Assembly: GCF_017963645.1 (NCBI RefSeq)
Contig: NZ_JAGMWN010000003.1
Span: 1-64,000, forward strand
DNA length: 64,000 bases
Direction of reading: 5' to 3'
From: Marivibrio halodurans
GTDB lineage: Bacteria; Pseudomonadota; Alphaproteobacteria; UBA8366; Aestuariispiraceae
Program-made: the position numbers and the translations under genes
Notes under the pieces: model-generated
What the model saw: only the letters and a program-made list of their open reading frames with translations
What the model was told of the DNA's origin: nothing
Database searches by the model: none
Part shown: one piece after another, positions 39,711 through 62,426 of the stretch
Position numbering within the stretch: position 1 is the stretch's first letter
How the letters are laid out: the number at the start of each line of letters is the position of its first letter

Positions 39711-40268
39711 GTGAAGCTGACCAAGACATATAGACGCCTCGTTCGCGACACCACGATCAACGACACCAGTCTGCTCTCGACGGATTATCTGAACCATTTC
39801 AATGAACTGGTGATGATGCTGGAGATGGTGGGCGACATGCCGGAGATGCTGGACGAGGCCGGCGCCTGGCGCTTCAAGTCCTATCAGCAGCATTTCGCGG
39901 ACAGTGTCTTCCAGCACAAGGATCTGGCGGTCTGGGCTTACGAGCATGCGCCGGACATCTGGCGTGAGCCGTTCGACCGCTGCACGGCGGCGGCGCGCGA
40001 ACGGATCGAGGCCGGACTGCCGCGATTGGACCGTCTTCGCGCCGGGGGGGAGACGGCGGCGATCGCGGTGGAAGCGCCCGCGCTCTCCCGCGATCTGGTC
40101 CGCCATATCGAGACGATGAGCGCCATCATCAATGCCGCCATATCGGCGGAAGAAGCCCGGGCGCTCGCCGACGGGGCGGAGCATGTGGCCGAAGGGCGTG
40201 ACGCACCGGTCCACCGGGAGGGTGCGACGACTCTCGGTCAATCGGATATCGACAAACTGTTCGATTGA
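39711..40268 (+). CDS. Conserved orphan with CheZ-like C-terminal tail
   Basis: This 185-residue, probably cytoplasmic protein has no membrane segment. It reads as mostly helical (TDYLNHFNELVMMLEMVGDMPEMLDEAG; LSRDLVRHIETMSAIINAAIS). It has no domain I can name. Its last 11 residues, LGQSDIDKLFD, nearly match the last residues of the CheZ-like protein at 58159 (ISQADIDALFD), joined to the body by a loose linker. In CheZ the C-terminal tail docks on phospho-CheY, so a receiver-binding role is inferred. It starts 50 bases after the LOG gene and may share its transcript. The start at 39711 is a GTG (GTGAAGCTGACC). Confidence 0.82.
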   Translation: MKLTKTYRRLVRDTTINDTSLLSTDYLNHFNELVMMLEMVGDMPEMLDEAGAWRFKSYQQHFADSVFQHKDLAVWAYEHAPDIWREPFDRCTAAARERIEAGLPRLDRLRAGGETAAIAVEAPALSRDLVRHIETMSAIINAAISAEEARALADGAEHVAEGRDAPVHREGATTLGQSDIDKLFD

Positions 40269-40298
40269 CGCCGGGGCGCGCCATTTTCTTTTAGAATT

Positions 40299-40308
40299 AG
40301 ATAGTCAG
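40299..40308 (+). repeat. Left 10-bp direct repeat of the AT-rich insert
   Basis: AGATAGTCAG occurs here, 31 bases after the stop of the preceding gene, and again in direct orientation at 41202-41211. The two copies bracket one gene and its regulatory region. This is the expected look of a target-site duplication or short attachment core. Confidence 0.55.
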
Positions 40309-40332
40309 GGTCGTGCAAATTAGCGTTTATAC

Positions 40333-40351
40333 TCATGTGTAACTCACATGA
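40333..40351. promoter_or_regulatory. Inverted repeat upstream of the insert gene
   Basis: A perfect 7-bp inverted repeat (TCATGTG-TAACT-CACATGA) lies about 80 bases upstream of the best promoter candidate. A regulator dimer site is possible. Confidence 0.35.
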
Positions 40352-40400
40352 CGTTCATCATTATATTGCATATTTTTGACACTCCTTAGCTTAATGATTT

Positions 40401-40414
40401 TTTATTATAATAAA
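40401..40414. promoter_or_regulatory. AT-only palindrome upstream of the insert gene
   Basis: The 14-base perfect palindrome TTTATTATAATAAA contains a consensus TATAAT (40406-40411). A consensus TTGACA lies at 40376-40381, but the 24-base spacing is too long for a normal sigma-70 promoter. The palindrome could be an operator or an IHF/HU-like bending site. Confidence 0.35.
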
Positions 40415-40429
40415 CAACAATCCCCTCTC

Positions 40430-40458
40430 TTGGTCAGTCTATTATTGTAGTATATGAT
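40430..40458 (+). promoter_or_regulatory. Sigma-70-like promoter of the insert gene
   Basis: TTGGTC (40430-40435) and TATGAT (40453-40458) are 17 bases apart and end 17 bases before the first possible start codon. It is the best-spaced promoter in the segment. Confidence 0.5.
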
Positions 40459-40475
40459 ACAGGTACTTTAAGTCG

Positions 40476-41207
40476 TTGGAGGAGATCTTGGAAAAATTAT
40501 CCGACCCTGAGCATCCGCTTTGGAGCTTCCTGCCGGAAATGACCAACGAGTTTTGGGCAGCGATCACTGGGGCAATCGTTGGCTCGGTAATTGGTGGCCT
40601 TATAACATTCGGTATACAGCGAATGTCCTTAAAGGCAGCAGAGAATGAGCGAGTTGACACGGCAAAAGATCGCCAACGTTCTTTGGGTTATTCACTGTTG
40701 TTCAAAATGGTGCGAATATACAGTGGCTTAGCTACCATGCACAACCATGTAGAGGAGTGCTTTACTCGCGCTCGCGAACAAGGCCACGGACACTTGGAAC
40801 CATGGGCCGTACTGCTTCCTATCGCCAATCCGTTGGACAAGGTTCATTTTGCCAACGAAGAAATGGCAATGTTGTTATCATTGAAGGACAATAACCTTTT
40901 CAATGACCTCGTCGCTTTGGATTCTGTCCATAACAGCACGATTGGACTTTTCCGAATGTACGGGGCGGAGCGAGGCGCGTTGCTCGAAAAGTTGCCCGCA
41001 AACATGACCGGCTTGGTCGGGAGGATTTCGCTGCCAGAAGACCAAGCCCAGCATGTGCAACCAAAAATGGCTGAGTTAAATGCACTAGTCACGGACACTC
41101 GTAAAAGATGCAAAAAAGATTACGATAAATCTTTGGATGTTCTGAACCGCTTGAACAATTTGTTAAACCAGAAACTGGAGTTGGGTGTTTCGGTGGTACC
41201 GAGATAG
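40476..41207 (+). CDS. Membrane-anchored orphan protein of the AT-rich insert
   Basis: I cannot name this protein of about 243 residues. A single membrane helix with small-residue spacing (AAITGAIVGSVIGGLITFGI, about 28-47) is followed by a basic/acidic helical stalk (QRMSLKAAENERVDTAKDRQRSLG). A cytoplasmic, mostly helical domain of about 170 residues completes it, with MVRIYSGLATMHNHVEECF and VHFANEEMAMLLSLKDNN as the most family-like blocks. Codon use and base composition differ sharply from the neighbours. Start codons are TTG at 40476 or TTG at 40488 (GGAGGAG three bases before it). A single-gene membrane sentinel or defence role is possible but unproven. Confidence 0.75.
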   Translation: MEEILEKLSDPEHPLWSFLPEMTNEFWAAITGAIVGSVIGGLITFGIQRMSLKAAENERVDTAKDRQRSLGYSLLFKMVRIYSGLATMHNHVEECFTRAREQGHGHLEPWAVLLPIANPLDKVHFANEEMAMLLSLKDNNLFNDLVALDSVHNSTIGLFRMYGAERGALLEKLPANMTGLVGRISLPEDQAQHVQPKMAELNALVTDTRKRCKKDYDKSLDVLNRLNNLLNQKLELGVSVVPR

Positions 41208-58158: not shown

Positions 58159-59013
58159 CTAGTCGAACAGCGCGTCGATATCCGCCTGAGAGATTCCCTC
58201 ACCCGCGCGGGCGGGGCCGTTCAACAACGCCGCATCCTCGTCGCGCTCGATCTCCGGGATCGGCAGATCCTCGAACGCCTCGATCCCCCAGATGCCGATC
58301 ATCGCGACGATCCGTTCCTCGATATGGCGCAGCGTAGCGATCACCTTGGAGGTCCGCTGGCCGGTCAGGTCCTGGAAATTGCAGGCCTCCATGATCTTGA
58401 TCGTCGCGGCCTCGATCCGGGAACACAGCGCCTCGGCCTCGGTGTCGCCGGCGATCGTGCCCGCGAGACGGGTCAGGAGGTCCATCTGAGCCTCCGCCTG
58501 GCCCAGGATCTCGTCGGTCGCGGTCGCCGTGTCGTGGATGATCGCGTCAAGCTCGCTGCGCGCATCCTCCATCCGGTTATTGTCGGCGCCCGGATGCTTG
58601 ATATGCGCGATCTCGGCCTTCGCCTTGCCGATCATCTTGACCATGCGCGCGATCTCGATACGAACCGCCAATTCGGAATCGCCCCCCGAATCGGCGCGCC
58701 CCACCGACATCTCCGGGCTTGCCTCCTCCCCCGTCGTCGCCCGCAGAATCCTGCCCATCATCGAATGCATCTCGCCGAGTTCCGCGCGGATGGCGTCCAG
58801 TTCGGCACCCGTCGCCGCGGACCGGGGCACGCCGGCACCGTCGCCGTCGGCGTGATCGCGATCCCCCGTCTCGTCGCCATCATCCAAAGGCGCGCGCGAC
58901 CTTTCCGGCGCGGCGGGGCCGGCGGACACCGATGGCACGGAAGGGTCGAGGGACAAGTCCCGCTCCGCGCGGAAGCGCTTTCTGCCAAGAGATCCGGGAG
59001 AGGATTGCGTCAT
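58159..59013 (-). CDS. cheZ: CheZ-like phospho-CheY phosphatase
   Basis: This 284-residue protein has a disordered, acidic N-terminus (to about 70), then long helices. The catalytic CheZ motif is NFQDLTGQ (212-219): Asp215 and Gln219 correspond to Asp143 and Gln147 of E. coli CheZ. The last residues, ISQADIDALFD, form the CheY-binding tail. It should speed dephosphorylation of CheY-P and so tune the flagellar motor. No cheA or cheY lies next to it. The tail is shared with the protein at 39711. Confidence 0.87.
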   Translation of the reverse strand: MTQSSPGSLGRKRFRAERDLSLDPSVPSVSAGPAAPERSRAPLDDGDETGDRDHADGDGAGVPRSAATGAELDAIRAELGEMHSMMGRILRATTGEEASPEMSVGRADSGGDSELAVRIEIARMVKMIGKAKAEIAHIKHPGADNNRMEDARSELDAIIHDTATATDEILGQAEAQMDLLTRLAGTIAGDTEAEALCSRIEAATIKIMEACNFQDLTGQRTSKVIATLRHIEERIVAMIGIWGIEAFEDLPIPEIERDEDAALLNGPARAGEGISQADIDALFD

Positions 59014-59316
59014 GATGAGGATGCTCGTTCGATTAAGTCGCCGGTTCGACGATTACCATGGCCGGAGAACCGCGCCCGAACGCACGTAACTCCGTATTCT
59101 CTCAGGTACTATCATGCCTCAAATTCCTTTTTTGGAGGTTAACGCTTCATCCATTCCCGTTTAATAAGGACGTGGGTGCAGGTCGGTTTTCCACTCTCGA
59201 CGTCCATGCGATGATACAGGTTAGCCGTTTTCCTTCAACGAGGTGACGATCAAGCAAGAATCCCGGTGCGGCGGGCGGGGCGCCAGGCGGTTCAACGAAC
59301 GGGAAGACACGAAACG
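59014..59316. other. Noncoding gap between divergent genes
   Basis: These 303 bases separate the CheZ gene from the orphan at 59317. The middle (about 59090-59180) is AT-richer than its surroundings and must hold the promoters. I see no tRNA, strong hairpin or repeat. A 62-codon open frame at 59058 has no ribosome binding site or homology that I recognise. Confidence 0.4.
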
Positions 59317-60354
59317 ATGACGGATCAAGCGGAGCTCGTTCCCACCGACAAGGAACGGGACAGCCTGCATATATTGCCGCTATGCATCGTGCCTCTCGAA
59401 ACGCCGGGGCTTCGACGCGCGCGGCTCGTCAAGAACAACCGGATCGAGACCATGATCGAGCTGTTCAAGGCGAGCGGCAGCGGCAGCGGCCAGGTCACGC
59501 TGCGCGACCTGCCGGGCTTCTTCCCCACGGCCAACGAGGCCGCCTTCAAGAGCGATATCCACAAGATCGGCGCGCTCGCTCGTATTCCGAGTTTCGACGT
59601 CTATTCCTGCCGAATATCCCTGCGCGCTCTGGGCATCCAGGTCGACGAGCACACGCACCTGCAATTGTCCGACACGAAGAAATCCGAACTTACCGAACGG
59701 ATGAAGGCCTTCACGGCGCCGCTGATCAAGAATGTCTACGGTCAGGATACCAAGGACGTGGCGGATGCGGGCGACCTCAGCGCCATGCTGCGCAACCCGG
59801 ATAAGGAAGAGGCGCTGCGCCGGCTCACCATGCTGGCGGAGAAGCTGAATGTCTCGCTGGAGGATATCCCGCGTTTCGTGGAGGATTACGGCGACGTCTT
59901 CCTTTCCCTCGCTTTCTTCCAGGACAAGCTCGACGAGGTCGTTCCGACGCTCAACACCTTCCTGGGCTGGGTCGCCGACCTCCGCCAGAGCTGGCAGGTG
60001 CGCAATGATCGTTCCCAGGACCGAATCCTGGACACGATCGTTGCCGACCTCTCCGACATCTCCGGCTCGATCACCGGCCGGTTCGAGAGTTTCGAGCGCA
60101 AGACGCAGGATTTCTGGACGGACATCTCGGCCGAGCGGTTCAAGGAGGTGCGCGACCTGGTCACCGCGCATCACGTCACGGTGGGCGGTGTTCTGTGCGG
60201 ACTCACGCTCAAGCTCGACCTCTGGCAGGAGCGCTTTCCCGACCGGAATTCCGGCGGCCCGCAACAACGGATCGAATTCTGCATCAGCGAGATCATGCCG
60301 GGCCTCGATCATATCAAGCGGCTGGAGGCCCGGGCCGCCAAGAGCGGTAACTGA
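59317..60354 (+). CDS. Conserved cytoplasmic protein of unknown function
   Basis: I do not recognise this 345-residue protein. There is no signal peptide or membrane helix. It reads as mostly helical: LTERMKAFTAPLIKNVYGQD, DKEEALRRLTMLAEKLNVSLEDIPRFVEDYG and a coiled-coil-like stretch around 240-290 (RILDTIVADLSDISGSITGRFESFERKTQDFW). It is divergent from the CheZ gene and is followed by the subtilase gene after five bases. A signalling or motility link is only suggested by position. GGGAAG precedes the ATG at 59317, which is preferred over the longer frame. Confidence 0.78.
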   Translation: MTDQAELVPTDKERDSLHILPLCIVPLETPGLRRARLVKNNRIETMIELFKASGSGSGQVTLRDLPGFFPTANEAAFKSDIHKIGALARIPSFDVYSCRISLRALGIQVDEHTHLQLSDTKKSELTERMKAFTAPLIKNVYGQDTKDVADAGDLSAMLRNPDKEEALRRLTMLAEKLNVSLEDIPRFVEDYGDVFLSLAFFQDKLDEVVPTLNTFLGWVADLRQSWQVRNDRSQDRILDTIVADLSDISGSITGRFESFERKTQDFWTDISAERFKEVRDLVTAHHVTVGGVLCGLTLKLDLWQERFPDRNSGGPQQRIEFCISEIMPGLDHIKRLEARAAKSGN

Positions 60355-61771: not shown

Positions 61772-62026
61772 CTATTTCGAGCGATCGGGATCATAGTCGG
61801 CAAGAAGTTCCTGCATTCGGTTGGCCGCGCGATTGGCCGCGGCGAGACGCGCGCGCGCAGGGTGGTTCTCGTCGACCTTCTCAAGCCCGAGACTGAGATT
61901 CGCCAACAGGCTCGCCATCGCGTTGTTGAGATCATGCATGGTCCGATCCGAGGAAGAATTCCGCCGTTCGATCCACCCAGACACACCAGCGTAGGCGGAG
62001 CCGGTTTGATCACTGTTGCCCGTCAT
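61772..62026 (-). CDS. Small DHp-like (H-box only) protein
   Basis: This 84-residue protein holds one histidine-kinase-like H-box, MHDLNNAMASLLANLSLGLE, with a candidate phospho-accepting His at about 31, then a second helix (ARARLAAANRAANRMQELLADYD). That is the two-helix hairpin of a DHp dimerisation domain, without a catalytic ATPase domain. It directly follows, and overlaps by 17 bases, the response regulator at 62010. It may be a phosphotransfer or anti-kinase partner of that regulator. AGGAG four bases upstream supports the ATG at 62026; ATGs at 62029 and 62038 are alternatives. Confidence 0.7.
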   Translation of the reverse strand: MTGNSDQTGSAYAGVSGWIERRNSSSDRTMHDLNNAMASLLANLSLGLEKVDENHPARARLAAANRAANRMQELLADYDPDRSK

Positions 62027-62426
62027 CATGCTCCTCATCGGAATGACCGATGCCGGAAGGTCGGTCCGTCCGGCTCACGGTCTCGATCGTCTCGAACAAT
62101 GCGTTCGGCTTGAACGGCTTTCTGATCGTCGCGTCGGCGCCGAGAACCGGGGCATGGTTCAAGAAGTGGGCCAATTCACCCTGGGCACCGGACATCATGA
62201 TGAACCACATGCCCAGCCGTTTGCGACGAACCGTGCGCAGGAGCTCGAATCCTTCCGCCCCCGGCATCAGAAGATCGCACAGAATAAGGTCCGCGGGCCA
62301 CACCTCCAGAACATCCAACGCCTCGAGCCCGTCCGCCACGCATCGCACCTCGTGGCCGGCCTCGCTCAACAGGGCGTCGAGCGCATCGCGCAACATCGCA
62401 TCATCATCGACCACGCAGATCAACAC
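62010..62426 (-). CDS. Stand-alone response regulator receiver
   Basis: This 138-residue CheY-type receiver has the acidic pocket Asp7-9 (CVVDDDAM), phospho-acceptor Asp51 (LILCDLLMPG), the Ser79 switch (IMMSG) and Lys103 (IRKPF). All residues for phosphorylation are present and there is no output domain. The last 15 residues are a His/Asp-rich tail. The start is GTG with a GGGGGAG about ten bases upstream. It overlaps the DHp-like gene, so the two are coupled. The kinase that feeds it is not in the window. Confidence 0.9.
   Translation of the reverse strand: MLICVVDDDAMLRDALDALLSEAGHEVRCVADGLEALDVLEVWPADLILCDLLMPGAEGFELLRTVRRKRLGMWFIMMSGAQGELAHFLNHAPVLGADATIRKPFKPNALFETIETVSRTDRPSGIGHSDEEHDDGQQ

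Follow-up and report, generated by a model that had tools for sequence, protein, structure and literature searches.

A CheZ- and FliM-like C-terminal tail on a conserved small protein family of Alphaproteobacteria: candidate regulators docking on CheY-like receivers

The 64,000-nucleotide stretch of the Marivibrio halodurans genome analysed here (contig NZ_JAGMWN010000003.1; hereafter the window) carries, at positions 39711-40268 of the forward strand, a GTG-initiated gene for a protein of 185 aa, which represents a single-copy alphaproteobacterial family without a Pfam or NCBIfam model. Just upstream, on the same strand, lies a gene of the LOG family (TIGR00730; 39056-39661), and directly 3' of the 185-aa gene there is a sharply AT-rich stretch (40268-40476), followed by a TTG-initiated ORF (40476-41207). 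Within the protein, residues 24-35 (TDYLNHFNELVM; 39780-39815, forward strand) form the start of a predicted helix (residues 24-40), and residues 53-65 (39867-39905, forward strand) include the positions W53, Y58, H61, F62 and S65 of a 69-member family alignment. A linker that is variable in the family and predicted to be disordered (residues 160-175, pLDDT <50; 40188-40235, forward strand) leads to the tail QSDIDKLFD (residues 177-185; 40239-40265, forward strand), predicted to form a short helix at residues 177-182, with pLDDT <50 for residues 183-185. The final 13 codons and the stop codon occupy positions 40227-40268, and the protein ends in ...TTLGQSDIDKLFD, i.e. with GQSDIDKLFD. It matched no Pfam or NCBIfam entry at E≤1, a sequence search of the PDB revealed no relative (best E 0.073), and no known family from these three sources could be assigned to it.

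A second gene of the window (58159-59013, reverse strand) encodes a CheZ-like protein of 284 aa (PF04344, E 2e-11) with the phosphatase motif FQDLTGQ. The C-terminus of this protein is ...GEGISQADIDALFD, and its tail, ISQADIDALFD followed by the stop codon, was read from the ORF at positions 58159-58194 (reverse strand). The genome (G000) encodes three CheZ-like paralogues, each ending with SQ.[DE]ID.LFD; the two located outside the window lie near positions 669646-669927 of contig C11 (L001) and 161585-161875 of contig C19 (L004). Beside the CheZ gene of the window, a 362-aa protein is encoded (59266-60354, forward strand) that gave no Pfam match over the cut-off. An 88-aa ORF (61772-62038, reverse strand) containing the box HDLNN matched HisKA weakly (E 1.1e-4, which falls short of the cut-off) and is possibly a stand-alone DHp or histidine phosphotransfer-like protein.

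The first-pass annotation of the window had proposed that the 185-aa protein and the CheZ-like protein share their C-terminal tail, and the ends of both ORFs confirm this, at a frequency far from chance. A search of all 4.18 Mb of the genome with the looser pattern Qx[DE]IDxLF gave four occurrences, versus 0 for the reversed control, and all four are C-termini, those of the window protein and of the three CheZ-like proteins. In 59 related genomes, Q..ID.LFD followed by a stop codon was found 57 times (reversed control, 0): 46 of the bearers are CheZ-like, 11 belong to the family of the window protein, and there are no others. PF04344 is matched by 45 of these 46 CheZ-like proteins, the remaining one being a 50-aa fragment. 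Among 289 genomes of the class, the same pattern was present at 84 places in 46 genomes, against 0 for the control. Two of these places were excluded: a TGG read-through (L223; TRR admits TGG) and a CheZ-like sequence ending with IDSFFD (L258). The other 82 comprise 67 CheZ-like proteins, 14 members of the window protein's family and one fragment at a contig end (L273), followed by DNA that matches a CheZ locus (L276). CheZ calls in the 289-genome set were made with our own profile, built from the 46 relatives' sequences, and not with Pfam; 21 of the places were classed from earlier results (16 in G000, G002, G004 and G051, plus five family places). The tail is extremely enriched, as had been anticipated for signalling proteins, and apart from CheZ occurs in a single further family. 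Zero control occurrences versus 4 in the genome, 57 in the relatives and 84 in the class rule out chance resemblance. More broadly, the motif is short, a property that would suit a chance or convergent likeness of a 10-residue C-terminus, but such an origin is extremely improbable in view of the empty controls (against 57 and 84) and of the retention of the motif in 69 of 88 family members.

The likeness between the two proteins is restricted to the tail. When 16 family sequences were compared with 46 CheZ-like sequences (hhalign), the profiles aligned over the last 18 columns only (prob 85.6, E 5.6e-6). Because only the tail aligns, the window protein is not a divergent CheZ; this identity was rejected, and the earlier proposal that the two bodies are unrelated stands. 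None of the 16 members matched PF04344 at E≤0.1, and a DxxxQ catalytic pair is not conserved in the body: across 69 members, no glutamine other than that of the tail reaches 85% conservation. The FliM domain (PF02154) was found neither in the window protein nor in the 16 members (the genome's own FliM is encoded elsewhere), and a CheC, CheX or FliY Pfam match was likewise lacking among the 16 at E≤0.1.

The tail has counterparts in two proteins that bind CheY. The C-terminus of Escherichia coli CheZ (1KMI chain Z), SQDQVDDLLD, stands in register with SQADIDALFD. In the same and related genomes, FliM N-termini have the form [VI]L[ND]Q[DK]EIDSLLG in 24 of 24 genes recovered (30 loci were tried, six of which gave no ORF by the filter used), so that the resemblance to the FliM motif noted in the first-pass annotation extends to every FliM gene obtained. 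According to the excerpted text of the respective reports, one face of CheY is bound by both CheZ and FliM in a similar manner (PMC3774744), the N-terminus of FliM is the CheY site (PMC7355467, PMC11528121), and its helix sits on the alpha4-beta5-alpha5 surface (PMC11528121). It is conceivable, albeit improbable, that the tail addresses a different partner common to CheZ, such as a polar scaffold or another receiver, and acts as a localisation signal. In Azorhizobium, as far as the excerpted text of PMC8563088 describes it, the C-terminal part of CheZ and D165 are required for energy-related polar localisation; however, the truncation described there took residues 71-236 and not the tail alone, and a localisation signal leaves aside the match with FliM, whose N-terminus is assigned to CheY binding (PMC7355467, PMC11528121, in the parts cited).

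Several features of the family suggest that the tail behaves as a separate unit. The mean frequency of the top residue per column is 0.09 in the linker versus 0.56 in the tail, and 5 to 59 residues (n=67) separate the tail from the final helix of the body. The motif is present twice in 7 of 88 members (L016, L136, L019, L141, L156, L161 and L171). Genome G247, whose family member has a degenerate tail, encodes a CheZ-like protein (L258; 334-1233, reverse strand) in which the tail motif likewise occurs twice (GQADIDGMFD and IDQKDIDSFFD). The idea of a short module reused on an unrelated protein, put forward at first pass, holds insofar as the tail is enriched and is the only shared part; it does not extend to the whole family, as the canonical motif, kept in 69 of 88 members, is missing or degenerate in 19.

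The family itself is widespread in Alphaproteobacteria. Carriers were identified among 19 of the 59 relatives and 57 of the 289 class genomes; in a sample of the phylum 26 of 299 genomes matched, 25 of them from the same class and the 26th by a weak match only (49 residues, E 6e-4). Members also occur on 11 Azospirillum replicons (plasmid records), and in one record, that of Azospirillum ramasamyi, the protein is annotated as "hypothetical protein". Sixteen members scanned against Pfam (E≤0.1) had no match in common, giving single stray matches only, and searches of the open-licence PMC literature yielded no recognised description of the family, or of the tail outside CheZ and FliM. Some long family ORFs are apparently extended at the N-terminus (L150, L142, L160 and L016); none is a recognised fusion. 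Members were counted after merging ORFs with identical last 70 residues (L282 repeats G073). From 72 unique ORFs we dropped L154 (G066), split by a stop codon into two ORFs, and L018 (G025), an aberrant short ORF; L023 of G041, with three internal stop codons, was never counted as a member, and the 88-member set leaves out two Azospirillum sequences (L245 and L246).

The body of the protein is strongly conserved. D25, Y26, N28, W53 and Y58 are invariant in 69 of 69 aligned full-length members, and further positions are nearly so (T24 in 68, F62 in 68, N31 in 67, E32 and H61 in 66, H29 and S65 in 65). T24-D25-x-x-N28 has a DHp-like appearance when compared, by eye only, with the H-D/E-x-x-N boxes of histidine kinases. 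An AlphaFold2 model, computed from three sequences only, predicts a helical bundle (pTM 0.76) with residues 160-175 disordered and a short helix at 177-182, and the model of a relative is of the same type but weaker (pTM 0.65). Foldseek found nothing for the model at E≤0.001. With VIA-align the two models retrieved generic helical bundles only, the best Z values (8.8 and 10.6) lying below the tool's caution line for bundles; CheZ was absent from its listing, which does not exclude a likeness to the long dimeric helical hairpin of CheZ.

The distribution of the family follows that of CheZ. In the 289 class genomes, CheZ is present in 52 of 57 carriers versus 63 of 232 non-carriers (Fisher 1.9e-19), and FliM in 50 of 57 versus 118 of 232. 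The association with CheZ is maintained within FliM-containing genomes (48/50 versus 59/118; 1.4e-9) and when each taxonomic family is represented by one genome (median p 9e-9, worst 6e-6 in 500 draws), but genome size, motility and ancestry shared above the family level remain as confounders. The figure of 52 of 57 may be an undercount, since genome G139, CheZ-less according to Pfam, has a CheZ-like 64-aa ORF with the tail (L239).

The canonical motif was absent in 5 of the first 69 members, and had been lost in 4 of 7 carriers lacking FliM versus 1 of 50 with FliM (Fisher 4e-4), a post hoc comparison: the data had already been seen when the motif was defined and the test selected, and the split gene of the FliM-containing genome G066 was counted as tail-keeping. 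For 19 further carriers the predictions were made beforehand: tail-keepers were expected to have CheZ, which held (5/5), while the predicted absence of CheZ from tail-less carriers failed, 11 of 14 having it. In one clade of large genomes (f148; 6.3-8.8 Mb) family proteins terminate in, for example, AEADIDTIMAN, and those CheZ ends that were read are ASQDDIDALFD or ASQNDIDALFD, with the tail intact. The TDYLN core is retained in tail-less members. Since CheZ, with its tail intact, is present beside tail-degenerate members, the body must have a use that does not require the canonical tail.

Gene context does not point to chemotaxis. A LOG gene precedes the family gene in 11 loci, all in the taxonomic family of M. 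halodurans, where it was present in all 11 contexts examined; a SRAP gene is placed head-to-head with it in 18 loci, and a NUDIX gene follows it in 13 (counts from 92 member loci, not all of them independent). The SRAP/NUDIX neighbourhoods were seen at L285-L294, L297-L300, L168, L169, L188 and L213. Those neighbours that could be identified were LOG, SRAP, NUDIX, SDR and further housekeeping genes, with no che gene among them. In two Azospirillum records (L245, 4251-5054, reverse strand; L246) a PhyR-like gene, encoding sigma-like and receiver domains, adjoins the family gene. Such surroundings raise a rather unlikely alternative, in which the body has an unrelated housekeeping task (e.g. in the maintenance of nucleotides or DNA) and is itself controlled, through the tail, by CheY-P or a CheY-like receiver, rather than controlling it. 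It would accord with a body that is more conserved and more widely retained than the tail, with the persistence of the TDYLN core in tail-less members and with the recurrent LOG, SRAP and NUDIX genes; nevertheless, these neighbours vary from one lineage to another and do not prove a shared function, and the strong co-occurrence with CheZ argues in the opposite direction.

Judging from its sequence, the family protein likely binds a receiver, and it probably has a role in chemotaxis or motor control. Because its tail is the same as that with which CheZ grips CheY, the family is probably an overlooked player in the swimming control of many Alphaproteobacteria. We consider it reasonably probable that the protein is a small helical-bundle regulator docking on CheY-P or a CheY-like receiver via its C-terminal helix, a reading that would also accommodate a convergent origin of the functional motif. 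The helix, carried on a flexible linker, would work like the C-terminal helix of CheZ and the N-terminal helix of FliM, lying against the receiver at its alpha4-beta5-alpha5 face, after which the bundle would act on the captured molecule. The output of CheY-P would most likely be lowered, either by dephosphorylation via the invariant D25-x-x-N28 helix or by sequestration from FliM. Sequestration without catalysis, with the protein as a pure competitor or phosphate-signal buffer, is possible though doubtful: the tail is much like the motif with which FliM begins in the same genomes, and doubled motifs in 7 of 88 members would fit a multivalent binder, but a mere sequesterer would not need the invariant polar helix of the body.

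For the docking regulator, catalysis is the more speculative component. The phosphatase motif of CheX and CheC is ExxN, and that of CheZ is DxxxQ. In D25-x-x-N28 an acidic and an amide side chain are spaced by one helical turn, which we take to be a resemblance to both. A phosphatase activity exerted through these residues is thus a tentative suggestion, speculatively built on their invariance and on the CheZ and CheX/CheC motifs; Y26, W53, Y58 and the nearly invariant H29, N31, E32 and H61 would equally suit another active or metal site. Rather doubtful, too, is the fullest form of this proposal, a class of stand-alone CheY-P phosphatases widespread in Alphaproteobacteria, in which a four-helix bundle would join a D-x-x-N catalytic helix to a CheZ/FliM docking helix, unrelated to CheZ, CheT, CheC and CheX and existing beside several CheZ paralogues.

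In those Alphaproteobacteria that possess several paralogues of both CheY and CheZ, the termination of the CheY-P signal is incompletely understood. Roughly one in five of the sampled class genomes (57/289) encodes a member of the family, in which a receiver-docking helix of the CheZ/FliM type is joined to an unrelated conserved body, and, if CheY-P binding is true, the family supplies a part that a textbook pathway has so far lacked. Its carriers include Azospirillum, a genetically tractable and motile genus.

Compared with known systems, the family shares with the CheY-P phosphatase CheZ (PF04344) a C-terminal SQxDIDxLFD helix on a linker, but differs from it in having no Pfam CheZ match, no conserved DxxxQ and no alignment beyond the tail. 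With FliM (PF02154) it has in common the motif of the N-terminal CheY-binding peptide, which in FliM is N-terminal on a C-ring protein, whereas in the family it is C-terminal on a small bundle. Unlike CheX, CheC and FliY, the family lacks their Pfam matches and has an all-helical predicted fold; as in these proteins, an acid and an amide are placed at i and i+3 on a helix, and D25xxN28 would be functionally analogous. CheT of Sinorhizobium meliloti (Agbekudzi 2024, via PMC12654446) is, as described in the excerpted text of the citing article, a protein that contains DXXXQ, is predicted to resemble CheZ in structure and is encoded in a che cluster. By that description (PMC12654446), the family differs from CheT in having no conserved DxxxQ and no che genes found adjoining; both are small proteins of Alphaproteobacteria that do not belong to the E. 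coli paradigm, CheT acting on CheY-P. If our reading is right, the family functions like CheZ, CheT and CheC/CheX without belonging to any of them.
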